From the NCBI GenBank assembly GCA_012735465.1, contig JAAYHJ010000058.1, positions 1 to 35,129 on the forward strand: a stretch of DNA of 35,129 nt. The letters run 5' to 3'. Below the pieces are notes generated by a model. It had not been told where the DNA came from. It did no database searches and saw only the letters and a program-made list of their open reading frames with translations. This stretch comes from Clostridiaceae bacterium (GTDB taxonomy: Bacteria; Bacillota; Clostridia; SK-Y3). Below are positions 17,980-35,129 of this stretch, piece by piece; position 1 is the first letter of the stretch, and each line of letters starts with the position of its first letter. The position numbers and the translations under genes are program-made.

Positions 17980-18918
17980 ATGTGGGGAAAGATGAAAGAA
18001 CCTTTTATTTTTTTGCGCTCGGAAGTAACAAGGGAAGATGCATTAAAAATCATTGATTGGTTGCAAGATAATGAGGTAAGGAAATATTTAAGCGATAATC
18101 AGGATGTATCCGAAAGTATAAGGCAGGTAATCGATAGAGTTAATCTACCGGTTCTTACTCACCTGTTCAACAATAAAGGTAGGTTTTATTTGGTCCATAG
18201 CAGAGATAACAATCCTGTAGGCTTTGTTCGTTTGGTTACAAAAGGCGATGAAACCGAAATGGTTATTGTAATCGGTGACAGAAAGAACTGGGGGCAAAGG
18301 TTTGGAACCAGTGCCATTCATGAAAGCATGAAAATTGCTTTTTTTGAACTGAGGTCTTCAAAGCTTGTGGCAAAGATTCATAAAAAAAGCAAACGTTCTA
18401 TACTAGCATTTTTAAATGCAGGATTTACGATAGAACGTGAATCTTTGTACATGAAATACTTTTCTATAACCATGAATGAATATTTAAGGTTAGTTCGAAG
18501 AAGAGCTGTTTTGGTAAGCCAGATATATATTACGGAAACTGATAAATTTAGGCTTAATGAATTGATTGTAGAAGAGCTGTATATGGATAAACAAATGAAT
18601 ATTATTATCCGGGACTTGAAACATGAGATTAGCAGAGCAAAAATTGTTGATTCAAGAAATATTCCTGAGGATGTCATAACCATGAATTCAAGGGTTCTGT
18701 TGTGCCTGAATGGTAATGATATGGAAATTTCACTGGTGTATCCCCGGGATGCCGATGAATCAAAAAGCAACCTTTCAATATTATCCCATATAGGTACTGC
18801 TATCTTGGGATACAGAGAAGGAGATAAGATTGAATGGGAGATTCCATCGGGGACTGCCGAGATTTTTATAAAGAAAATATTGTACCAACCGGAGGCAGCA
18901 GGAGATTATCATTTGTAG
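17980..18918 (+). CDS. GNAT acetyltransferase fused to an Rnk-like (GreA/B C-terminal) domain
   Basis: Two-domain cytoplasmic protein of 312 residues. Residues 9-165 form a GNAT N-acetyltransferase with the acetyl-CoA loop region NWGQRFGTSAI and a closing FLNAGFTIERES segment. Residues 180-312 match the nucleoside-diphosphate-kinase-regulator Rnk fold: a short helical hairpin (about 182-220), then an FKBP-like GreA/GreB C-terminal domain with DVITMNSRV, SLVYPRDAD, GTAILGYREGD and the nearly diagnostic end YQPEAAGDY. Rnk and the Gre factors bind RNA polymerase, so the fusion suggests acetylation linked to transcription, but the substrate is unknown. The ATG at 17980 or at 17992 (after GGGGAAAG) could be used; the second adds no loss to either domain. 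Confidence 0.85.
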   Translation: MWGKMKEPFIFLRSEVTREDALKIIDWLQDNEVRKYLSDNQDVSESIRQVIDRVNLPVLTHLFNNKGRFYLVHSRDNNPVGFVRLVTKGDETEMVIVIGDRKNWGQRFGTSAIHESMKIAFFELRSSKLVAKIHKKSKRSILAFLNAGFTIERESLYMKYFSITMNEYLRLVRRRAVLVSQIYITETDKFRLNELIVEELYMDKQMNIIIRDLKHEISRAKIVDSRNIPEDVITMNSRVLLCLNGNDMEISLVYPRDADESKSNLSILSHIGTAILGYREGDKIEWEIPSGTAEIFIKKILYQPEAAGDYHL

Positions 18919-19319: not shown

Positions 19320-19582
19320 AAAGACGTTAGTTAAAAGACAATGAAAGAGATAAGTAGTGATCCATGGTTACAATTCAGAGAGAAGCCCGGATGGTGAGAG
19401 GGCTTCAGCACATGGATTTACGAATTACCCTCTGGAGTTGCGCACTGAAAGCATGTTGCCGGTAGGTGTAGACGGATGCGCCCGTTAAAGCGTAAATATA
19501 AATGAGGTACATCCATAGGATGTACGAATAAAGGTGGTACCACGGGTCTTCTCGTCCTTTTATAAAAGCGAGAAGATTTTTT
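19320..19582 (+). promoter_or_regulatory. T-box riboswitch for tyrosine (tyrS leader)
   Basis: Senses uncharged tRNA-Tyr and prevents early termination. Stem I begins with GAGATAAGTAGTGATCC, containing the AGTA bulge. The specifier loop has GAATTACCC with a TAC tyrosine codon at 19426-19428. The T-box proper is AAGGTGGTACCACGGG (19531-19546), in which the TGGTACC bulge has T to pair with the A discriminator of tRNA-Tyr. The terminator is TCTTCTCG 19547-19554 with CGAGAAGA 19569-19576, followed by six Ts (19577-19582). Specifier, discriminator match and downstream gene all agree on tyrosine. Confidence 0.93.
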
Positions 19583-19624
19583 AATTATTATAATAAATAA
19601 TAAAAGTTGGATGGAGGGAGAAGG

Positions 19625-20857
19625 ATGGCTAATGTTTTTGATACATTAAAAGAAAGAGGATTGTTAGCGCAGGTAACCCATGAAGAAAAGGTCAGAGAAA
19701 TCCTTGGAAAAGAAAAAGTAACATTTTACATCGGATTTGATGCTACAGCAGACAGCCTGCATGTCGGACATTTCCTTCAGTTGATGGTTATGGCCCATAT
19801 GCAGAGGGCAGGACATCGCCCCATTGTAATCATTGGGGGTGGAACCACCATGGTGGGAGACCCTACGGGCAGGACGGATATGCGCAAGATGCTGACTCGT
19901 GAGGAAATACAGAAAAATGCAGATAACTTCAAAAAGCAGATATCCCGCTTTATTGATTTTAGCGACGGAAAAGCCCTTATGCTTGATAATGCAGAATGGC
20001 TGTTGAAGCTTAACTATATCGATTTTCTTAGAGAAATAGGAGTCCATTTTTCTGTAAATCGTATGCTTACTGCGGAATGTTTTAAGTCAAGGCTGGAAAG
20101 AGGTTTATCCTTCATTGAATTTAACTACATGTTGATGCAAAGTTATGATTTCTTGAAACTGTTCCAGGATTATAATTGTACTTTCCAGTTAGGTGGTGAC
20201 GATCAGTGGTCCAATATCCTTGGAGGGATTGAACTTATCCGAAGGGTGGAAGGAAAGGAAGCCTATGGGATGACCTTTACCCTTCTTACCACCAGTGAAG
20301 GAAAGAAAATGGGTAAGACGGAAAAGGGTGCGCTTTGGCTGGATGCGGAAAAAACCTCGCCCTATGAGTTTTACCAGTACTGGCGAAACGTACATGATGC
20401 GGACGTGATTAAATGCTTAAAGCTGATTACATTCCTTCCATTGGAGCAGATAGAAGATTTAGCCAAGCTAAAGGATGAAAAAATAAACGAAGCAAAAAAA
20501 GTATTGGCATATGAAGTAACTAAACTGGTACATGGGGAAGAAGAAGCAATTAAGGCACAAAAGGCTGCAGAGGCCCTCTTTGAAAAGGGCGGAAATGCTA
20601 AGGATATGCCTACCTCTGAGATAAGCAGCAGGGAACTGGAAGGCGGAATAAACATACTTGACCTTTTACTGTTAAGCAAAATAATCCCTTCCAAGGCGGA
20701 AGGCCGTAGGTTGATAAGCCAGGGAGGGCTATATATAAATGACCGGCGCATCGAAACCATAGATACGGTGTTCCATCGCGAAGATTTCAGTGAAAACGGC
20801 TTGATGGTGCGAAAAGGGAAAAAGACGTACCACAAGATTATGCTAAAGGATGAATAA
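19625..20857 (+). CDS. tyrS: Tyrosyl-tRNA synthetase
   Basis: Class I synthetase that charges tRNA-Tyr, 410 residues. The signature [19 protein letters not shown] contains the HIGH-equivalent HVGH, and the KMSKS-equivalent is [11 protein letters not shown]-terminal S4 RNA-binding domain covers about residues 340-410 ([12 protein letters not shown]-like region). The frame opens six codons earlier at a TTG, but those codons are the ribosome site itself (GGAGGGAGAAGG), so ATG 19625 (MANVF) is the start. It is controlled by the tyrosine T-box immediately upstream. Confidence 0.97.
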
Positions 20858-24050: not shown

Positions 24051-25085
24051 ATGAGTGAAAGGCCTTTTCCATTAAAACCCATGACCGTGGGGAACATATT
24101 GGATTATTCCTTTCGTATATACCGCAATAATTTTAAAAGCATAATAACCTTTAGCGTGCTAATTGGTGGTTTATTCAATTTGGTATTACTGGTATTGACC
24201 AAGCTTGCAGCGCCACCGGGCACCTTTGTAAATCCCTGGCCTTATATTATTGACGGTATTAAGACCGGTAACTGGGAAAGCATTTTTAATAGTATTCTAA
24301 ACCAGCAAGTATCCCCGGCACTGATTGGACCTGATTTCTTTATCCGTTCATTGCTCATGATAATTATTGCCTACGGGGGTACGTTTATACTTTATGTTTT
24401 CATAAATCCCTTTGTACACGGAGGTATTATTAATATAGCTTCCGATTATTTTCATGGCGTCCCTTCGAATGTGTCTACGGCATTTAAGAAAATAGGTGAA
24501 AAGTACGGTAAATTGGTTCTAACGGCTTTAAGCCTCGTGGTATGTTATATGGGGGTTAGTATTGTCTGTTTTATACTGATAATCGTTTTTGTCTTAATAA
24601 TTGGACTTTCATCAGTTGGTTTATCCGCTGTAGGCGGTGGGGAAGTTGCCATACTTATAGGTTTTGTAGTATTCTTCATTGTACTTGCTTTAATTTTTGC
24701 TGTGTGTTTTGCATCCATCTCCTTTGTATATCCTGTTGCAATATCAGAAGGAGTTTACCATTTCAATGCCATTGGACGCAGTTTTAAGCTGGCATTTAAA
24801 AAGTTCTGGAGGGTGCTGGGGGTAAATATATTGGCATATTTGCTTGTGAGCATATTGAATACTGCCATCGCGGGAATTATGATTTTGATTGCTGTACTGT
24901 CCCCGGTGCAAATCCTTTTTCAGGAGATACTCACGCTCTTTACTTCTGCAATAGCCGCCCCAATCATATATATTGCTACCACCATGCTGTACTTTGATAT
25001 GCGCATCCGTACGGAAGGATATGACCTGGAACTTTTATCGGATGAGATGAAGGAGAACGAACAATGGGAAAATACATCTTATTGA
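24051..25085 (+). CDS. Multi-spanning membrane protein of the DUF4129/MoxR locus
   Basis: Integral membrane protein of 344 residues with about six hydrophobic segments. The N-terminal motif RPFPLKPMTVGNILDYSFRI and the later KLAFKKFWRVLGVN resemble the glycerophosphodiester-phosphodiesterase membrane-domain family found next to DUF4129 genes in Firmicutes. No phosphodiesterase catalytic domain is present. The role is unknown. It is the first gene of a three-gene cluster, 28 bases after the hydrogenase-like gene, and its end overlaps the DUF4129 gene by 22 bases. Confidence 0.8.
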   Translation: MSERPFPLKPMTVGNILDYSFRIYRNNFKSIITFSVLIGGLFNLVLLVLTKLAAPPGTFVNPWPYIIDGIKTGNWESIFNSILNQQVSPALIGPDFFIRSLLMIIIAYGGTFILYVFINPFVHGGIINIASDYFHGVPSNVSTAFKKIGEKYGKLVLTALSLVVCYMGVSIVCFILIIVFVLIIGLSSVGLSAVGGGEVAILIGFVVFFIVLALIFAVCFASISFVYPVAISEGVYHFNAIGRSFKLAFKKFWRVLGVNILAYLLVSILNTAIAGIMILIAVLSPVQILFQEILTLFTSAIAAPIIYIATTMLYFDMRIRTEGYDLELLSDEMKENEQWENTSY

Positions 25086-25762
25086 GTCATTGCATGAATG
25101 GTTTGCTGAATATTTCTGGCCCGTCTGCTATGCCTTCCTCGCAGGAAATTGAAGAAAGGATGGAAAAAATACTGTCTGCTCCTGAGTTTAAGGAGCAGAC
25201 TGATTATATTGGAGAATTTATACTTGACTTGCTTGACAAAATCTTTGGCAGCCTGTCGATAGGAGGCAAAAGGATTCAATTTATTGCAGTGATTGTATTT
25301 ATTGCTACGGCCTTGTTGTTAGCATTGCTGGTGGTTCTTGCAGTTAAGAATATTTCAAAGCATATGGGAAAATCTTTTAATGCCTTGGGGCCACAGGAGG
25401 ATGTATCATCAGGCAGGTTGTCGGCAGATGAAGCACTTATTATGGCAAAAAAAGAAGCGAAAAAAGAAAACTACGTAGGGGCCATCAAATGGCTTTTCCT
25501 GGGCGTCTTATTATCCCTTCACATTCAGTCCTATATTGTATTACATGAGTCAAAAACAAATCGCCAGTATTTTAATGAACTGAAGAAAAATCGTTTTGAG
25601 CTGTTGGGGCTGTTTGAAGACTTGGTGAGAAGGTTTAACAGTATTCGATATGGGGGTAGGCAGGCAACCAGGGAAGATTATTTGTATTGGTCGGATGCCG
25701 TCGGCCGGATTTATGCCAGTATATACAAGACTGGGAACAAGGGAGATGGTCAGCATTCATAA
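25064..25762 (+). CDS. DUF4129-type membrane protein
   Basis: Protein of 232 residues with one membrane span (about residues 70-95, FIAVIVFIATALLLALLVVL) and a C-terminal cytoplasmic helical domain. SADEALIMAKKEAKKENY, ESKTNRQYFNEL and RFNSIRYGGRQATREDY match the DUF4129 pattern, normally the C-terminus of transglutaminase-type proteins of MoxR clusters. The ATG overlaps the end of the upstream gene and has AAGGAGAACGAAC before it. It is coupled to the DUF4350 gene by overlap. Confidence 0.83.
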   Translation: MGKYILLSHCMNGLLNISGPSAMPSSQEIEERMEKILSAPEFKEQTDYIGEFILDLLDKIFGSLSIGGKRIQFIAVIVFIATALLLALLVVLAVKNISKHMGKSFNALGPQEDVSSGRLSADEALIMAKKEAKKENYVGAIKWLFLGVLLSLHIQSYIVLHESKTNRQYFNELKKNRFELLGLFEDLVRRFNSIRYGGRQATREDYLYWSDAVGRIYASIYKTGNKGDGQHS

Positions 25763-26822
25763 AAATAAAGAGTTGTGGATACTTTTTATAATTATTGCCT
25801 TAATCATTACAGGCAGTTTTATGCTGTATATTTTTTCTTTTCAGGACGATTTGCTTATTCTTTCGACAAAAAGTGCACAACCCTTGGGAGTAAAAGGCCT
25901 GTATCTTTTGCTGGAAGAGCTGGATTTTAATGTATCATCCGTAAGCGGTGATATTTCACATTATAAAGGTGTGGTTATTTTATTTGAGCCGCAAATGGGC
26001 ATGGCTCATGACGAAAAAATTATGCCCTTTAAAGAATGGGTAAGCCGCGGCAATACATTGATTATAGTAGGCAATTACAACCGCTTTTTTAAGTTTTTAG
26101 ATGACCCGGATGATATGCAGGAAAAAAGCATACCGGAGACCTTCAAATGGCCTGAAGACCATGAGGGTATATTTTACGACATACCCTATGGCAGGGGGAA
26201 TTTTAGATTGATTCCTGATTTAAATTTTTTTACCAATGCAGGAATGAGGAAAAAAGGGAATGCAACCAGGATAATAAATTGCCTGTGGGAGTATCATGAT
26301 GTACCCATATATTTTTATTCTTTTTTGGATGAAGGCAGATTAAAATTGTCCGGGGTGTGGAGCAATTCCCCTATTAGCCTTTTAAACTGGACCGAAAGAT
26401 TTATCCTTATTCAAATACTGCTGGGAATAATCCTATATGTTTTCTTTGTAGGGAAAAGGCTGGGGCTTCCCGTGGTTTATGAGGAAGAAGCATTAAGAAA
26501 AGAAAATGAAGATGTGCTGGCACTGGCAGCGCTTATGGAGAGGGCGGACCTCAGGCAGGATGCATTAATGCTGTATTACAGGCAGTTTGAAAAAGAGGCG
26601 TCCGGTTATTTTAAAAGGGATATAAGCGGAAATGCCGAATTGTTGGAAGAACTTTGGATGCAGTATGAACTTGGCAATCTTGATGAATTAAGGGAGGTAC
26701 ATGAATATACAGAAAGCATTAAAAAAGGAGAGGCCTTGTCTAAAGAAAATATGATTGATGCTTTTAGGAAGATAGATAAGTTAAGAGAAACATTTGTAAA
26801 TAATGGAAAAGGTTATTGCTAA
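25746..26822 (+). CDS. DUF4350-type membrane protein
   Basis: Protein of 358 residues with an N-terminal membrane span (about residues 10-32), an extracytoplasmic DUF4350 domain (GLYLLLEELDFNVSSV, then a GATase-like WVSRGNTLIIVGNYNRF core) and a second span near residues 215-237 (FILIQILLGIILYVFFVGKRLG). A charged helical tail follows. The open frame extends back to 25650, but that part lies within the DUF4129 gene, and ATG 25746 begins a typical anchor. The GGGAG just upstream is close to the ATG, so coupling to the overlapping upstream gene is likely. In related genomes moxR usually follows at once. Here it is 8 kb away. Confidence 0.83.
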   Translation: MVSIHKNKELWILFIIIALIITGSFMLYIFSFQDDLLILSTKSAQPLGVKGLYLLLEELDFNVSSVSGDISHYKGVVILFEPQMGMAHDEKIMPFKEWVSRGNTLIIVGNYNRFFKFLDDPDDMQEKSIPETFKWPEDHEGIFYDIPYGRGNFRLIPDLNFFTNAGMRKKGNATRIINCLWEYHDVPIYFYSFLDEGRLKLSGVWSNSPISLLNWTERFILIQILLGIILYVFFVGKRLGLPVVYEEEALRKENEDVLALAALMERADLRQDALMLYYRQFEKEASGYFKRDISGNAELLEELWMQYELGNLDELREVHEYTESIKKGEALSKENMIDAFRKIDKLRETFVNNGKGYC

Positions 26823-27234
26823 GGATCACCTCGACTGGTCATGTTAGTAGGGATGTTTTTTTTGGCCTATAACAACTGCCCTTGTTGCGGTTTTGCCGTT
26901 CATCCAATGAAATATGCATTTTGTCAGGAATAATTGAAAAATGTAGAACGGTTTAATATGATGAAACAAGATTAATTATGTATACACATAATGAATAGGA
27001 AAAATTTGGAGTCGGAGATTTCAAAACCAGCGATATAGATGCCTTGAAAGTTATTATAAAGGTTTGTAGTAAGCATGAAAATTTGATTGTTATTTCCAAT
27101 ATGAAGTAAAATATCAATTCAATTTGGAAGGTGGTGACATAAATGATATGGTTGTGCTTAAAATTTGAAAATACATCATAAGCTATCTGCTAATTATTTC
27201 TTAGTTTAAGTCCAGCTGTGGTATTAGTTTTTTA
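26823..27234. other. Gene-poor stretch with short protein remnants
   Basis: No full gene is visible in these 412 bases. A 26-codon ORF at 26853-26933 (CPCCGFAVHP, then FCQE) resembles the start of a small CPCC zinc-motif protein but is cut short. Codons around 27000-27108 read FGVGDFKTSDIDALKVII and then stop. ATG 27143, with AAGGTGGTG upstream, opens only 12 codons. The stretch looks like decayed coding DNA at the left edge of the segment that separates the DUF4350 gene from moxR. Confidence 0.5.
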
Positions 27235-27924
27235 TTGCCATATTTTACTACAGGATGGGGGCGAATTATTATAGAAGCAATACAGAAAGCCATAAGGGAA
27301 AGCAATATTAGTGTTGTTTTTATACTGGCAGGTATATTGATAGCGGTGGTGGCCATTTTTTGTTGCTTGATTTTTAGTCCTGCAGCAAAAAGTTATACGA
27401 AAGTTCAATGGATTATCATTCTAGCTTTGGTTGCCGTAATTTCTATAACTATTTCTATATTTTTAGCAAGGAAAATAATGGACAGTTTAGATATAAAAAG
27501 GAGCAAGGTTTGGCAGGATTTACGGAAAAGAGGATACGAAAATGATTTTATTTCATCCATTGATTACGAAATAAATCATAATCTTCTTGTGAAGTTTGAA
27601 GATAAGAATTATAAACTCCATTTATTTGTTACTCGTGCTTGGTTCATATTTATTTCAAGAAATGGGTCGACAATAAGGAAGACAGAGGAAGTAGTTTGGA
27701 TGTATTCCAAAATGCCTCAGGGAGTTACATTTGACAATGGTAAAGATATGCTGATTATTGGTTTCCGGGATGGAAGTGTTTTTAATAACTATTGCTTTTT
27801 ATCTTGCGCTAAAATTATCGCAGCTTGTAAAAATAAACTGCCCAACATTTCTTACGGTTATAGCGAGGAAATGGAAAATTTGTTTAACAAGAATCCAGAA
27901 GCGTTAATAAAAAAATCATTTTAA
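27235..27924 (+). CDS. Uncharacterised membrane protein, about 229 residues
   Basis: I do not recognise the family with confidence. It has two hydrophobic segments (about residues 26-48 and 58-76), then a soluble C-terminal domain with strands (HNLLVKFEDKNYKLHLFVTR, WFIFISRNGS, DMLIIGFRDGS) of PH-like or bacterial-PH-like character. There is no good start: the frame opens after TAG 27202 with only TTG 27235 and no ribosome site, so the N-terminus may be lost or wrong. The gene lies in the decaying segment left of the broken SLH surface gene. Confidence 0.5.
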   Translation: MPYFTTGWGRIIIEAIQKAIRESNISVVFILAGILIAVVAIFCCLIFSPAAKSYTKVQWIIILALVAVISITISIFLARKIMDSLDIKRSKVWQDLRKRGYENDFISSIDYEINHNLLVKFEDKNYKLHLFVTRAWFIFISRNGSTIRKTEEVVWMYSKMPQGVTFDNGKDMLIIGFRDGSVFNNYCFLSCAKIIAACKNKLPNISYGYSEEMENLFNKNPEALIKKSF

Positions 27925-28244
27925 TTATAAGCAACATAAATACATGCTTAAAAGGAGTGTTGATTAAAATGAGAGTTAGAGTAGAACGCATAATGTCAAC
28001 AATTTTAATTTTGTGTATGTTGTTAACATTGGTGCCACCAGCTGTTTTTGCAAACACAAATTTTTTTTATGAAGACGTGATTGGTTTAGAATCACGGCAG
28101 CTTGATGATATTATTGCCGAAGCATTCCAAACAGATGTTTAATCGGCAGCAACAAATGAAGCACCGGATGGATATGTTCCTAAAAACACGGTTATTGAAC
28201 CAACTGTTCGACTATTTGCTGAAGAATCTTCAAAAAAGGTTTTA

Positions 28245-29051
28245 TTGGTGGAAGATGTTCTTCCGTGGGATTCAACAGCAAATCAAGTGGTATTAGGGTC
28301 AATAACTCAATATCAGAAGGTTACAACATCCCAGTTTTTATCTGTAGATTTATCCGAGTATGGAGTAATTGTTTTTGCGAATGACCAACCGTTTTCCACA
28401 TATGAAAATTATAGGGAATTTAAAGAATACATGGAGTTGTTTGCAAGTATAGGCGGTGTTATTGTTTTTGGAGCTTGTGATGCTGGTTGGTCAGAAGGAT
28501 CTTTGATTGAGAAGTTGCCAGGTAATGTAAGTAAAAAAACACACTATGTTGTAAGGAATCATATTGCAGATTATAATCACCCTATTGTGACAGGAGTACT
28601 GTCTGATAACATAGCTTTGTTGGATGAAGATTTAACAGGATCATATTGCAGCCATGTTTCTTTTGACGAAGAATCATTACCGGCGGGTAGCAAAATAATT
28701 TTGAGAGAAAATGACACAAATCGTCCAACATTAGTTGAATATCCGCTTGGAAAAGGTCGAGTTATAGCATCAGGGCTTACTTGGGAATTTACATATGATA
28801 GGGCAGGGAGAAATGGTTCATATGGGTATATTGGTTATTTTGCTCGGAAAGCAATGGACGATATGTTCCGCTATGCTATCCGCGTAAGTAGCATTGACGT
28901 AGTGGATTTGAAAGAACTAAAACAATATTATATGAACAAAAATGCTCATTACATTGTAGTGGGTAATAAGCATGCTCCCAATAATGCTCCGATAGAAAAT
29001 GCAACTGTATCAATCGGAGAAAAAAATATACTACCGATGCTAATGGAATGA
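28245..29051 (+). CDS. Surface-protein fragment: GATase-like domain (same gene as 27969-33562)
   Basis: Open piece between the first in-frame stop and the frameshift, 268 codons. VLLVEDVLPWD starts a class-I-glutamine-amidotransferase-like or ThuA-like Rossmann domain (YGVIVFANDQPF, GGVIVFGACDAGW, YPLGKGRVIASGLTWEF), the same fold type as in DUF4350 proteins but without the catalytic amidotransferase Cys-His-Glu. It then enters a small beta module (NAPIENATVSIGEK) whose second half lies in the next frame. ATG-independent; no ribosome site at 28245. Confidence 0.55.
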   Translation: MVEDVLPWDSTANQVVLGSITQYQKVTTSQFLSVDLSEYGVIVFANDQPFSTYENYREFKEYMELFASIGGVIVFGACDAGWSEGSLIEKLPGNVSKKTHYVVRNHIADYNHPIVTGVLSDNIALLDEDLTGSYCSHVSFDEESLPAGSKIILRENDTNRPTLVEYPLGKGRVIASGLTWEFTYDRAGRNGSYGYIGYFARKAMDDMFRYAIRVSSIDVVDLKELKQYYMNKNAHYIVVGNKHAPNNAPIENATVSIGEKNILPMLME

Positions 29052-30403
29052 TTACATATAACGATGCTTTTGGTGTTAATACAGTAACAGTCACTGCTGA
29101 TGGATACAGAACCAACAAGCAGTACTATAATTTACAACCAAGAACCTCCCGTATGATATTTATGGAGAAGGATAAGAATGACGGGAAACCATACATATCC
29201 ATGGTTGCTGATACTAAAATGTATTACGACTTAAGAACTCAAACAAGGCAGTTTACCGAAGGTGATTCCACCATGCTCAATTTAAAAGTGGAAGGGGTTT
29301 GGAGGGAACATTCGCCCGGCAGATATATTATTTATCAAGACAGCATAGCCGGGGGTGCAGCCGGGAAATCAATTTCAAGTGCTGATGGTAATTTTTCGTT
29401 TGCACCAGGCAAATTATTAAATCCTGAGGTACCAGTAAAATTAAAAATGGTTTCAAATAACGGCATTGAATCAGAACCTATCGTTATTAATCTTACAATC
29501 AGTAAAAAGAATAATGTTTCAAACCAATTCAAGAATGCGTATAACATTAATAATGTCAGTAAGATAAAGCTAGGCGGAGACATCAATGCAAACGTCCCTA
29601 ATGATGATTTCAAAAAATTATTCCCTCTTGATTTATCTATAGAGGGTGCGGAAGTTCCCGTTGAGATAAGTGTATCGGAGGACGCTGACGGATATACAAT
29701 CAAGGGCGTTGTTGGCTTTATTTCAGGTGAATACACTAAGGGCCTTTTGAATGGTAGAAGCGAAGATGATAAAAAAGAATGGAGCAATTTAAAAAAGGAC
29801 ATTCAAAATGCAAAAGAGCTTCTTAGTGATAGAACTAAACTATTTAATGAGCGAAGGGATAAATTAGCGAAGACCCCATGGAAAAGCGGTGTTTCTTTTG
29901 AGGTACAAGTATGCGGATTTATTGAGGTAAAGCTTGATAAAAATGGCAATATTGTATCTGGAAGCGGTGGGCTCGTTGTTGACGGAGGAGCGGAGTACAA
30001 GTTCGGAAGGACATTTGCCGCTGGCCCTGTTCCTGTATATTTTGAACTTAAGGTAGGGGTTGGAGCCAAATTCCAAGGCGATTTTACTTTTTATACAGCA
30101 GATGAGGGTTTAGGATTTAAATTAGGAGGCTCAATAAAAATAACTCTTCCAAAGTTAGCGGTAGGTGGCGGTGTTGGCGTTCACGGTGTTGCAACCGTTG
30201 GTGTTGAAGGCGGAGCAGAATTGGAAATGGGAATCGCTCCCGACTGGGAGGGAACAATAGAAGCATATGGTGCAGTTAATATTAAAATACTTTTTGTTGT
30301 GGATTTTCAATGGAAATTTGCCAAAGGAACTTGGCAGCTTTGGCCGACCGCCAATAAAGCAAAAGCACTTTCCTTATTTGGCGATGAATATGAATATCTA
30401 TAA
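29048..30403 (+). CDS. Surface-protein fragment: beta-module and beta-rich region
   Basis: Middle fragment, 451 codons, in the -1 frame relative to the previous piece. It completes the carboxypeptidase-regulatory-like module (GVNTVTVTADGYRTNKQYY) and then holds about 300 residues of strand-rich sequence with many glycines (LGGSIKITLPKLAVGGGVGV, HGVATVGVEGGAELEMG) that looks like a repetitive beta sheet or barrel. It ends at TAA 30401. I cannot assign this middle region to a known domain. Confidence 0.5.
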   Translation: MITYNDAFGVNTVTVTADGYRTNKQYYNLQPRTSRMIFMEKDKNDGKPYISMVADTKMYYDLRTQTRQFTEGDSTMLNLKVEGVWREHSPGRYIIYQDSIAGGAAGKSISSADGNFSFAPGKLLNPEVPVKLKMVSNNGIESEPIVINLTISKKNNVSNQFKNAYNINNVSKIKLGGDINANVPNDDFKKLFPLDLSIEGAEVPVEISVSEDADGYTIKGVVGFISGEYTKGLLNGRSEDDKKEWSNLKKDIQNAKELLSDRTKLFNERRDKLAKTPWKSGVSFEVQVCGFIEVKLDKNGNIVSGSGGLVVDGGAEYKFGRTFAAGPVPVYFELKVGVGAKFQGDFTFYTADEGLGFKLGGSIKITLPKLAVGGGVGVHGVATVGVEGGAELEMGIAPDWEGTIEAYGAVNIKILFVVDFQWKFAKGTWQLWPTANKAKALSLFGDEYEYL

Positions 30404-30472
30404 CCCGAATTATCAATAATATCACGTGATTACAACCAAAAAACGACTGCGTGGAACGGCGGTGGAAACGCA

Positions 30473-33400
30473 ATGCTATTTGGTATAGTCGATGAGGCAG
30501 ATATTACCTCCTTGCAAGATTGGATTATGCCAAACTCAATTCCACAAATGTCCAAGGTAGGGGATAAATTAGTGATGCTTTTCCATGCAGATGATCCCTC
30601 AAGAGCTACAGGGGATAATACGGTACTTATGTATTCTGTTTACGAAAACAATGTATGGAGTGAGCCGAAACCAGTATGGGCAAGTGATACCGCCGATTTA
30701 TTCTTCGATCAAATCGTAGTAAATGATGAGCTGTACGTTGTTTGGCAAAAACAAAATAGCAAAGTAACCAAAGTTACGCCAGAAGAATTATTAGCAGAAA
30801 CAGCAAGGAACGCAGAGATTTGCTATGCAAAATGGAACAAGAATAATAATTCTTTTGAGCAGCAAAGGTTTATTACCAACAATACTGTTTTAGATATGTA
30901 TCCAACAGTAGCGGTAAATGGTAGTGAAGTTTCTGTTGTTTGGGTAAGCAATAGTGAAAGTGATCCATTTGGAACTTCAGGGAAGTATTCAATAATGAAA
31001 TCATCTTTAGTAAATGGAAATTTTAGCACCCCGGTTAAGGTGTATGAAACAACGGATTATATTTCAGATATATCGGCTGGATTTATAAATAATAAGTTGG
31101 CTGCAATAGCTCTGACCGGATTTGATGTAGAAACCGCGGCCGTTATTTACATAAGTGATGATGAGACAAAGAATGTACAAAATTCTGTTACCGCCAGTGC
31201 GCCTAAATTTAACAATGGAAAATTTTATTGGCAATTAGAGGGTGCTATTTACGAATATGATCCGGTGAAAAACTTAACAACGGAAATTACTGCCGGCTTT
31301 GAAAAGGTTATTTCTTCCTCTTATAAACTTGTCAACAATAAAGATAAATCCGCTATTGTGTGGGTAGATGTAACAGATAATATTTATAGTTTAAAAGCAT
31401 CTATATTATCAGGAAATAGCTGGAGTGCTCCGATTACATTGTTGACACTTGATGATAATATCATTCAGTATATGGACGTTTCTTTGCTTGATAACGGTAA
31501 TTGGCAGGTCGTTATGAATAACCTGAAAAAAGACAGTGATAGGTACTCGCTTATGTTTGCAAACATCAACACTAAAACGGATATTTCGTTAGAATCAGCA
31601 TACGCTAACGAACGTGATAAAAACGGTAATTCTTTGCCTATTAATTATTCGGTTAAAAATTTGGGTGAAAATACTGTTGAGAGAGTGCATTTGAAAATTT
31701 ATACAGGTGACCACACTTATGTTGATAAATTTGTTACTTGCAAAATTGAACCGGGAGCAACAGTCAATTTTACAGAAAATATTGATGTCTCTAATATAGA
31801 TACTGTTACAGATGTAGCCATATATGTTGAATCGGAAGATGAGAGTAACTTAACTGACAATAGTGCAATTATTAAAATAGGACTTGTTGATGTTTCAGTA
31901 TCATTGTCAAGATATCAGATAGATCAGAATACTATAGTTGTAAACGCCCATATAAAGAATGAATCAAAAACACCGGCCAACGTTGCAATTAGTGTTATTG
32001 AAGATTCGTTGGATGGCATTGTATTGGATGTAAAAAATCTTGGTGTGTTAAGCAATGAGCAAGATTATATTTATATTTACACCATTGATATAACGAAAGT
32101 AGATTTCAGGGGTGATGATAAAAAATCATACTTTTTTAAGATAGATACCCTTGAACCAAATTTAAACAGCGATATCAGCGATGTGATTATTGTTTATCCT
32201 ATTGCAGAGGAAAATATTGGGACGGAACAAATAGAAGAAATTGTTATAGTACCTGTCACTGGAATATCCCTCAGCAGAAAAACCGTGGAACTTACCATAA
32301 ATGGCGAAATATATGAGAGTATGCAACTTTCCGCTACTATTTATCCGCAAAATGCTACAAATAAAGGTGTTATGTGGGAAGTGGAAAATGCCGATATTGC
32401 GCATATTGATAGCGAAGGTGTAATTACCGCAAGAAGTGCCGGAAAAACAAAAGTAATAGCAAAAAGCTATGACGGAGAATTTATTGATGAAGCTATTGTA
32501 ACCGTAAGCGACGTTGCAAAATATCAGTTGACAATAAAGGCGGGTACTGGCGGAACAATTACAAAAGGTTCGGAAGGAAAATATCTTGCCGGCGAGAGCA
32601 TCGAGATTTCTGCAAAAGCAAATAGTGGATATGTATTCAAGAACTGGACATCATCAAATGGAGGAACATTTGCGGATGCAAACAGTGCCTCAACCACATT
32701 TACCATGCCATCAAACGATACTACCATAACTGCCAATTTTGAGTCAACTGGCGGCGGTGGTGGCGGCGGTGGTACAACCACCTACACTGTAAAATTTGAA
32801 ACCAATGGTGGAAGTAAAATTGCTAATCAGTACGTAGCACAAAATGAAAAAGCTGTTCAACCAGACGCTCCCACCAAGCACGGTTTTACTTTCGCTGGCT
32901 GGTATTTGGATAAGGAATTGACAAAAGAATATGATTTTAATACGCTGATAACAGCTAACATAACTCTCTATGCTAAATGGATAGATGAGCCAACAAAGAC
33001 GGATGAATGGGTGAATCGATTTACAGATGTAAAGGATTCCGATTGGTTCTATGACGCAGTGCAGTTTGTTGCACAAAAAGGAATAACTCAGGGGATATCC
33101 GCAACATTATTCGATCCGCAAGGAAAGGTGACAAGAGCACAGTTTATCACTATGCTTTGTAGAGCTTATGGTATTGAGGAAAGGACTGGTGATAATTTCT
33201 CGGATGCCGGTGATACATGGTACACAGGCTATCTTGCAGCGGCAAAACAGCTCGGTATTTCCAATGGTGTTGGTGATAATATGTTTGCGCCGGAACAGGA
33301 AATCACAAGAGAGCAGATGGTCACGCTGATTTATAACTATGTAAAATCTATCAGCAGAGAGTCAATAGAGGAATGGGAAATTAATTTACCATATGCGGAT

Positions 33401-33562
33401 AAAGACAGTATTTCCAGTTGGGCGATAGAAGGTGTTATGTTCGGAACAATTAAAAAATGGGTTAAAGGAAAAGACAATAATTCTTTTGTTCCACAAGGCA
33501 AGGCAACAAGAGCTGAACTTGCACAAATATTCTATAATATGTTTACAGTCGAAAATGAATAA
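30473..33562 (+). CDS. Surface-protein fragment: propeller-like, CARDB, Big2, repeat and SLH domains
   Basis: The largest surviving piece, 1,029 codons. Residues 1-370 show repeated blocks like VVWVSNSES and IVWVDVTDNIYSLKAS, suggesting a beta-propeller. About 375-590 contain two CARDB-like units (INYSVKNLGENTVERVHLKI, VVNAHIKNESKTPANVAISV). A Big2 domain follows (VTGISLSRKTVELTINGE to DEAIVTVSD), then a cell-wall repeat (KAGTGGTITKGSEGKYLAGE), a short poly-Gly linker, a Listeria-Bacteroides repeat (FETNGGSKIANQYVAQNEKA) and three SLH domains to the end. SLH domains bind pyruvylated wall polymer. ATG 30473 has GGCGGTGG upstream, so a restart is possible but would lack a signal peptide. Confidence 0.6.
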   Translation: MLFGIVDEADITSLQDWIMPNSIPQMSKVGDKLVMLFHADDPSRATGDNTVLMYSVYENNVWSEPKPVWASDTADLFFDQIVVNDELYVVWQKQNSKVTKVTPEELLAETARNAEICYAKWNKNNNSFEQQRFITNNTVLDMYPTVAVNGSEVSVVWVSNSESDPFGTSGKYSIMKSSLVNGNFSTPVKVYETTDYISDISAGFINNKLAAIALTGFDVETAAVIYISDDETKNVQNSVTASAPKFNNGKFYWQLEGAIYEYDPVKNLTTEITAGFEKVISSSYKLVNNKDKSAIVWVDVTDNIYSLKASILSGNSWSAPITLLTLDDNIIQYMDVSLLDNGNWQVVMNNLKKDSDRYSLMFANINTKTDISLESAYANERDKNGNSLPINYSVKNLGENTVERVHLKIYTGDHTYVDKFVTCKIEPGATVNFTENIDVSNIDTVTDVAIYVESEDESNLTDNSAIIKIGLVDVSVSLSRYQIDQNTIVVNAHIKNESKTPANVAISVIEDSLDGIVLDVKNLGVLSNEQDYIYIYTIDITKVDFRGDDKKSYFFKIDTLEPNLNSDISDVIIVYPIAEENIGTEQIEEIVIVPVTGISLSRKTVELTINGEIYESMQLSATIYPQNATNKGVMWEVENADIAHIDSEGVITARSAGKTKVIAKSYDGEFIDEAIVTVSDVAKYQLTIKAGTGGTITKGSEGKYLAGESIEISAKANSGYVFKNWTSSNGGTFADANSASTTFTMPSNDTTITANFESTGGGGGGGGTTTYTVKFETNGGSKIANQYVAQNEKAVQPDAPTKHGFTFAGWYLDKELTKEYDFNTLITANITLYAKWIDEPTKTDEWVNRFTDVKDSDWFYDAVQFVAQKGITQGISATLFDPQGKVTRAQFITMLCRAYGIEERTGDNFSDAGDTWYTGYLAAAKQLGISNGVGDNMFAPEQEITREQMVTLIYNYVKSISRESIEEWEINLPYADKDSISSWAIEGVMFGTIKKWVKGKDNNSFVPQGKATRAELAQIFYNMFTVENE

Positions 33563-33574
33563 ATAGCAATGATG

Positions 33575-33614
33575 CAGCGGTTTAGTCGAGAGACTGAACC
33601 GCTGTTTTATGGAT
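33575..33614 (+). terminator. Terminator after the SLH surface gene
   Basis: CAGCGGTTTAGTC at 33575-33587 pairs with GACTGAACCGCTG at 33592-33604 with one G-U pair and a GAGA tetraloop, followed by TTTTA. Confidence 0.8.
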
Positions 33615-33630
33615 TTTTTCCAAAAAATCA

Positions 33631-33659
33631 TTGTAAGATGTGGTAAAAAATTATATAAT
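33631..33659 (+). promoter_or_regulatory. Promoter of the LytTR regulator gene
   Basis: TTGTAA at 33631-33636 and a perfect TATAAT at 33654-33659, exactly 17 bases apart, predict a start near 33666 and a leader of about 110 bases. Confidence 0.65.
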
Positions 33660-33697
33660 TTTATTAATAAACTAAAGTTAAGTTAATATTTGTATTT

Positions 33698-33750
33698 AAG
33701 GAGGTTGTTAACATATTATAGTTTATCTTACATTTATCCTCCTTTTTTTT
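33698..33750 (+). promoter_or_regulatory. Leader hairpin that can act as terminator and hide a ribosome site
   Basis: A perfect Shine-Dalgarno sequence AAGGAGG (33698-33704) with no start codon at a useful distance pairs with CCTCCTT (33738-33744), which runs into eight Ts (33743-33750). The loop is 33 bases. It lies between the promoter and the LytTR gene, so it is a candidate attenuator. The long loop lowers confidence. Confidence 0.4.
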
Positions 33751-33774
33751 AATAATTGGATGTGGTGATGAGAC

Positions 33775-34503
33775 TTGCTTGAAATAATCATTTGTGATAA
33801 TGAAAAAGAGTATGTTAATTCTTGTACAGCTGCAATCAAAGGGGCTATAGAGAGATACAACCTTGATGCAGAGGTCTTATTGTCTACTACCAATCCCAAT
33901 GAGGTAGTTAGCCTTATTAGAGAAAAAGAAGGTATTTTTTTTGTGTTGCTGTCATTGATTTATGATATAGGTGTCAAAGGGGTTGATATAGCAAAAAAAA
34001 TTAGGGAGCATGACCGCGATTGCTACATAGTATTTGCCACAAGACATGTTGAGCTTATGCCTACGGTGTTTGAAGGACTGATAAGGCCTTCAGGTTTTCT
34101 AAACAAGCCTATTAATATAGACGATATGCTGTCTGTCTTTCTGGATGCTTATTGTGATCATATTAACAGTTTACAAAAAGAAGAGTGCTACAGTATTACT
34201 ATTGGTCCAAGGTTTTATAAGATTCCTCAAAAGAGCATATATTACTTTGAAGCTGCACAAAAAAAGATAATTATTAATACCGATACTCAAAGGATCGGGT
34301 ATTATGATAGCCTCGAGACTATCGGAAAGGAACTTAATGGAAGCATCTTTGTCCGTTGCCATAAGGGGTTTATCATTAATATCACAAAAGTAGAGAGAGT
34401 AGATTTTTCCGAGATGCTTGTTTTCTTGAATAACGGTGCATGTATTCCTATTTCCAGAAAGTATAAGGATTCATTAAGACAGTCTTTATATAATATTTTT
34501 TAA
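33775..34503 (+). CDS. LytTR-family regulator with atypical receiver domain
   Basis: DNA-binding response-regulator-like protein of 242 residues. Residues 1-125 are a receiver-like domain: Asp8 of the acidic pocket, Thr89 and Lys111 are kept, but the phosphoacceptor position in FVLLSLIYDIGVKG is Ser60 where AgrA-type proteins have Asp. Residues about 137-240 are a LytTR DNA-binding domain (YYFEAAQKKIIINTD, then GSIFVRCHKGFIINI and IPISRKYKD). It starts at TTG with GGTGATG upstream. No sensor kinase is adjacent in the window. Loss of the phosphate site suggests control by level or ligand, or a decaying gene. Confidence 0.8.
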   Translation: MLEIIICDNEKEYVNSCTAAIKGAIERYNLDAEVLLSTTNPNEVVSLIREKEGIFFVLLSLIYDIGVKGVDIAKKIREHDRDCYIVFATRHVELMPTVFEGLIRPSGFLNKPINIDDMLSVFLDAYCDHINSLQKEECYSITIGPRFYKIPQKSIYYFEAAQKKIIINTDTQRIGYYDSLETIGKELNGSIFVRCHKGFIINITKVERVDFSEMLVFLNNGACIPISRKYKDSLRQSLYNIF

Positions 34504-34586
34504 ATGATATTTAATGTGTAATTTTGCATTTCATCCTAATTGTGATAGAGATTCATGTTTGTAAAATAATATTTAATTTTTAAAAA

Positions 34587-34637
34587 CTGGCCGGACACTA
34601 CCATTATTTACATTGCGCGTGTTTCCGGTCAGCTTTT
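34587..34637 (+). terminator. Probable terminator after the LytTR gene
   Basis: CTGGCCGGACAC at 34587-34598 can pair with GTGTTTCCGGTCAG at 34619-34632, with a two-base bulge and one G-U pair, then CTTTTATT follows. Confidence 0.55.
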
Positions 34638-34779
34638 ATTGCTGATAGACATATTTCCATGTGTGCCATTAAACTGAAATGGAAATGAAATATATATTCA
34701 GGAAGGATATTATTTTTCCGGAAACCTGATGCGATATCTATGTCAGTTTTGTGAGTCTATGGCAATTTTCACTAATAAA

Positions 34780-34788
34780 TGTTATAAT
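34780..34788 (+). promoter_or_regulatory. moxR promoter, extended -10
   Basis: TGTTATAAT contains a perfect TATAAT (34783-34788) with an extended TG. The -35 (TGGCAA) is weak. It is about 75 bases before the moxR start, so moxR does not depend on the distant DUF4129/DUF4350 genes for transcription. Confidence 0.55.
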
Positions 34789-34864
34789 ACTGTCTGTATC
34801 TTTATTTTTAGGTAAAAAACAATAATATGCTGGATTGTTCGTATAGTTTGAGAGGAGATAAAAA

Positions 34865-35129
34865 ATGAGCCAACAGATGATCACTGCAGCTGTAACTCAG
34901 CAAATTAAGGAAGAAGTAGGACGTGTACTGCTTGGACAGGAAGAGTTTTTAAATCTTTTGCTTGTTTGCTTGTTTACCGGCGGACATGTATTGATTGAAG
35001 GCGTGCCCGGGCTTGGTAAAACCCTGGCAGCCCGAACCTTAGCGGCGGTTGCCGATGTGGATTTTCGCCGCGTCCAGTTTACACCGGATATGATGCCTTC
35101 CGATTTGATAGGTACAAATGTTTTTGACA
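34865..35129 (+). CDS. MoxR-family AAA ATPase (cut by window end)
   Basis: The N-terminal 88 residues of a MoxR chaperone-like AAA+ ATPase. GQEEFLNLLLVCLFTGGHVL leads into a Walker A IEGVPGLGKTLAARTLA, then FRRVQFTPDMMPSDLIG, the typical MoxR block after Walker A. MoxR proteins act with DUF58/VWA partners in maturation of secreted or metal-containing proteins, and with DUF4129 and DUF4350 membrane proteins in many Gram-positive loci. The ATG has GAGAGGAGA upstream. The partner genes would be expected downstream of the window. Confidence 0.93.
   Translation, partial: MSQQMITAAVTQQIKEEVGRVLLGQEEFLNLLLVCLFTGGHVLIEGVPGLGKTLAARTLAAVADVDFRRVQFTPDMMPSDLIGTNVFD

Follow-up and report, generated by a model that had tools for sequence, protein, structure and literature searches.

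The MoxR-type gene cluster at the end of contig C42 is split between DUF4350 and moxR by 8,042 bp of DNA, which very probably represents horizontally acquired DNA inserted at the junction of the two genes, with its SLH surface-protein gene now decaying. An insertion into a formerly tight cluster had been proposed in a sequence-only reading of this DNA, and is supported by the contiguous arrangement of the cluster in relatives and by the match of the inserted two-gene module in a genome of another family. The window, that is, the whole stretch of DNA analysed here (35,129 nt), comprises all of contig C42 in a draft genome of 2.32 Mb in 95 contigs.

The split cluster and its counterparts in relatives

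The features of the locus are compiled in Table 1; gene and family calls place the end of DUF4350 and the start of moxR where the sequence-only reading had put them.

Table 1. Features of the split cluster and of the insert (positions in the window; G003, G004, G021 and G114 are genomes described in the text)
Feature	Position	Strand	Remark
DUF7847-like membrane protein, first host-cluster gene	24051..25085	+	53%/49% identical to G003/G004
DUF4129 protein, host cluster	25064..25762	+	Pfam; order as in G003, G004, G021
DUF4350 protein, host cluster	25746..26822	+	last codons (GKGYC) stand in place of ancestral moxR-overlapping stop
Insert, 8,042 bp	26823..34864	.	missing from the three cluster-keeping relatives
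Left part of insert	26823..27270	.	no homology found
Membrane-protein gene of module	27271..27924	+	72% identical to G114; open frame 27235–27924
SLH surface-protein pseudogene	27969..33562	+	intact 1,889-aa frame in G114
In-frame TAA stop in SLH gene	28140..28142	+	ACA in G114
1-base deletion in A-run, frameshift, at ~29020	29019..29026	+	alignment with G114
In-frame TAA stop in SLH gene	30401..30403	+	CAA in G114
LytTR-type regulator, intact	33775..34503	+	open frame; outside G114 module
Right junction, GAGAGGAGAT + moxR ATG	34843..34868	+	counterpart stretch in relatives inside DUF4350 end
moxR (AAA_3), 5' 88 codons	34865..35129	+	cut by contig end; rest on contig C48 (L028)

Contig C48 starts inside moxR, with ≈ 3 bases missing between the two pieces by comparison with G003, and continues with genes read as DUF58, SpoIIM (opposite strand) and RDD. 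Identity to moxR of the same-family genomes is 70–85% for the first piece and 72–74% for the second, and the DUF58 gene adjoining moxR is 54–59% identical to the gene at the same place in G003 and G004. Because moxR continues on C48 with DUF58, SpoIIM and RDD, both flanks of the insert belong to one host cluster, which has the arrangement typical of MoxR clusters, AAA_3 followed by DUF58 with DUF4129 nearby (AAA_3 and DUF4129 assigned by Pfam).

The comparison set consisted of five genomes of the same family, none of them of the window's genus and including Petroclostridium sp. X23 (G003), together with a more distant genome from another family of the same class (G021). In G003, in a second genome of the family (G004) and in G021 the genes are contiguous in the order DUF7847–DUF4129–DUF4350–moxR–DUF58–SpoIIM–RDD, and the stop of DUF4350 overlaps the start of moxR by 4–8 nt in an ATGA-type arrangement, the direct adjacency that had been anticipated for close relatives. 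The site is empty in all three, as expected of a horizontal insertion, and the contrary outcome, the 8-kb segment being kept at this place in all relatives, was thus not encountered. The cluster is retained in two of the five same-family genomes (G003, G004); in the other three, DUF4350 and DUF7847 were not found at the threshold used, and DUF58 gave weak, partial matches at best. Even inside the family, host-cluster DUF7847 and DUF4350 proteins share no more than 38–54% identity with their counterparts. That the segment was here from the start and disappeared in the relatives might be entertained, the comparison set having no genome of the same genus that would give an empty site in a closer relative, but this would require independent exact deletions in three lineages, one of them of another family, each restoring the overlap of 4–8 nt, and the closest match of the module is in another family; such a history is highly improbable.

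Elsewhere in the window, a single frame (17980–18918, + strand) combines an N-terminal GNAT acetyltransferase domain with a C-terminal GreA/GreB domain, a combination that is not known as a standard one. A tyrosyl-tRNA synthetase gene (19607–20857) follows shortly after a T-box leader (19332–19562, + strand), which is the expected arrangement.

The probably acquired module and its match in another family

A blastn comparison of the window with G114, a genome from the same class but another family, gave one match of 5,488 bp (81.6% identity, 27271 to 32751); weaker similarity extends as far as the SLH gene runs, and the module's share of the insert is 27271–33550. In G114 the module is composed of two genes, encoding a membrane protein and an SLH surface protein of 1,889 aa. 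Both are present between DUF4350 and moxR in the window, where a membrane protein and a broken SLH gene had been described before, the latter being one interrupted gene; for the "remnants" reported at 26823–27270 no homology was found. The membrane protein has weak DUF6709 similarity, below cut-off, while the SLH gene comprises a signal peptide, an unnamed N-terminal part, a CARDB-like part, Big_2, InlB/List_Bact repeats and three SLH domains, and the N-terminal 300 aa had no match in Pfam, NCBIfam or PDB sequences.

Identity of the SLH protein to G114 is 87% over the N-terminal 292 residues and 73% over the later part (30404–33012). By comparison, a housekeeping phosphoglucomutase from the contig of the G114 module is 61.7% identical to its copy in the window genome, and the SLH proteins of G114 and its congener G179 are only 43% identical. 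With the N-terminal SLH part (87%) closer to this distant taxon than a host gene such as phosphoglucomutase (61.7%), and with 87%, 73% and 72% within the module set against 61.7%, 38–54% and 43% elsewhere, the module of the window is out of place with respect to the relationship of the species. Neither the membrane-protein nor the SLH gene occurs anywhere in the five same-family genomes (E ≤ 1e-3), and no second copy of the module was found in the window genome. The module would thus have arrived by horizontal transfer, and G114 is not the direct donor, because the DNA identity amounts to just 82%. Relative to G114, the SLH gene shows a synonymous divergence of 0.40 in 28143–29018 and of 0.80–0.92 in the following parts, as far as 32760, a pattern suggestive of a mosaic history. 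A replacement of the SLH end by a host SLH gene was considered and is not supported (41% identity to G114, 29–37% to the host copies).

An assembly chimera, in which G114-like DNA was wrongly joined into the contig, might come to mind for a draft in 95 contigs with a contig end inside moxR. The flanks, however, are the two halves of one host cluster, so that the assembly would have to contain two wrong joins, both precisely at the boundary between two genes; furthermore, the neighbours of the module in G114 (MCP, phosphoglucomutase) are absent here, and the module is decayed in the window and intact in G114. A chimera is accordingly very hard to credit, and horizontal acquisition followed by insertion is retained.

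Among 391 genomes, the N-terminal SLH part was found in four others and the membrane protein in three others; two of the 14 genomes of the G114 family carry the module, and its neighbours differ between G114 and G179. The case marks an undescribed pair of membrane-protein and SLH genes at unrelated places in a few Clostridia. It is conceivable, if rather doubtful, that the pair wanders between families of Clostridia as a two-gene surface module that carries no mobility gene, and that by entering here it separated the expression of moxR from that of DUF4350 and so rewired a conserved MoxR chaperone cluster.

Composition could be expected to bear on this question, since the segment had been called foreign-looking, with base and codon use proposed as a check. 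The insert genes have a GC3 of 0.25–0.33, mildly low against 0.379 ± 0.051 for 271 host genes (2nd–16th percentile), and the codon-use scores of the membrane gene, the SLH pieces and the LytTR gene range from the 18th to the 92nd percentile of the same host genes. Composition was consequently dismissed as proof of foreign origin: with ordinary codon use and mildly low GC3, such a check would not settle transfer, and the foreignness of the insert rests on homology rather than on composition.

Probable decay of the module

Alignment with the intact homologue in G114 shows the SLH gene to be interrupted by two in-frame TAA stops and one frameshift (Table 1), on which grounds it is a pseudogene; the remaining length differences are multiples of three. 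The ATG of the membrane-protein gene in G114 aligns with ATA at 27271–27273, the rest of the frame being open; a TTG further upstream, at 27235, shares the reading frame of the gene, yet falls outside the homologous stretch. Over 1,595 codons, dN/dS of the SLH gene versus G114 is 0.16, and most of the divergence therefore built up under selection, with the lesions arising late. Any single lesion could be a sequence error, given the draft assembly. Along these lines, the SLH gene may be supposed to be functional, with stops and frameshift due to sequence errors or recoding, which would agree with the low dN/dS, with the otherwise open membrane frame and with the position of the frameshift in an A-run. 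This is unlikely in view of three independent lesions and a lost ATG in one 6-kb module, next to intact host genes and an intact LytTR gene. In the favoured reading of a decaying gene, the surface protein presumably gave no lasting benefit, and the LytTR and moxR genes would still be usable.

Junctions of the insert

In the relatives, the ribosome-binding stretch of moxR sits within the last DUF4350 codons (G003: CTGCGAGAGGAGATCGTAAATAATG). At the left junction of the window, TTAAGAGAAACATTTGTAAATAATG keeps its coding sense and is followed by a new tail and TAA, the GAGGAG motif being gone; at the right junction, GAGAGGAGATAAAAAATG is found ahead of moxR. These motifs fit a short duplication at the insertion point, which is taken as a hint only, because such motifs are common before genes.

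Family searches of the segment revealed no transposase, integrase or recombinase; for terminal repeats, whether direct or inverted, matches stayed at chance level, and no tRNA or RNA element that could serve as target was found in the segment. Apart from the weak hint of a short duplication, the segment thus lacks the attributes of an autonomous mobile element (transposon, integron, prophage). A phage or plasmid origin of the module was rejected, as it matched nothing in viral contigs, phages or plasmids; no defence genes were found, and literature searches returned nothing relevant. Very probably, the lineage of this genome received the 8-kb segment precisely where DUF4350 meets moxR in the conserved cluster. 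Module and LytTR gene may have arrived together, as a composite, or in two separate events, and moxR would now be expressed from its own leader, with a candidate promoter at 34759–34788, and no longer via coupling to DUF4350.

The LytTR-type regulator

The regulator has a LytTR domain above cut-off, a weak receiver match and a match to the AgrA model far below cut-off. Its best relatives in 391 genomes are found in G159 (40%) and G329 (38%), the best copy within the family reaching 28%. Where receivers usually have Asp, the window protein has Ser, the G329 relative Glu and the G159 relative Asp; without the phosphoacceptor Asp in its receiver, the window protein is not a classical response regulator. 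As this residue varies among the nearest relatives, the Ser is not clear decay and looks like variation within a LytTR subfamily. The regulator called "altered" in the sequence-only reading looks intact and forms a piece of its own, apart from the G114 module. The promoter of its own that had been assigned to the gene (33631–33659, 10 of 12) is indistinguishable from chance, with 51 promoter-like sites observed versus 44 ± 7 in shuffles.

Relatives of the window LytTR gene lie inside type VII secretion-like clusters (L113, 1–8336; L114, 1–18487), and the neighbours of the G159 and G329 genes look, from their sequences, like WXG100-like (small) and EssC-like (large) proteins. No type VII secretion genes were seen in the host in 0.9 Mb sampled of 2.3 Mb. 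A phage origin of the window LytTR gene was discarded: a PHROG model matches well, and the listed phage copies (22–28%) are no closer than cellular ones. Another LytTR regulator of the same genome is located near a 2,278-aa SLH-domain protein (L075, contig C22, 9813–18769), for which no homology to the SLH gene of the window was seen other than in common repeat and SLH domains.

Comparison with known systems

The kind of event is well known, being one of ordinary gene transfer, insertion and decay; in the present case an insertion where two genes overlapped can be resolved cleanly, and both an intact relative of the module and its decay are visible. With MoxR-type clusters (MoxR AAA+ ATPase with DUF58/DUF4129 neighbours), the window and C48 share genes and order, whereas in the window 8 kb separate DUF4350 from moxR. 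The SLH gene has the domain set of the giant SLH surface proteins of Clostridia in common with the intact G114 protein, but it is broken, and its N-terminal 300 aa stand apart by having no match in Pfam, NCBIfam or PDB sequences. The regulator shares the LytTR domain and a weak receiver match with LytTR/AgrA-type regulators, from which it differs by Ser in place of the receiver Asp and by nearest relatives that adjoin WXG100/EssC-like genes.
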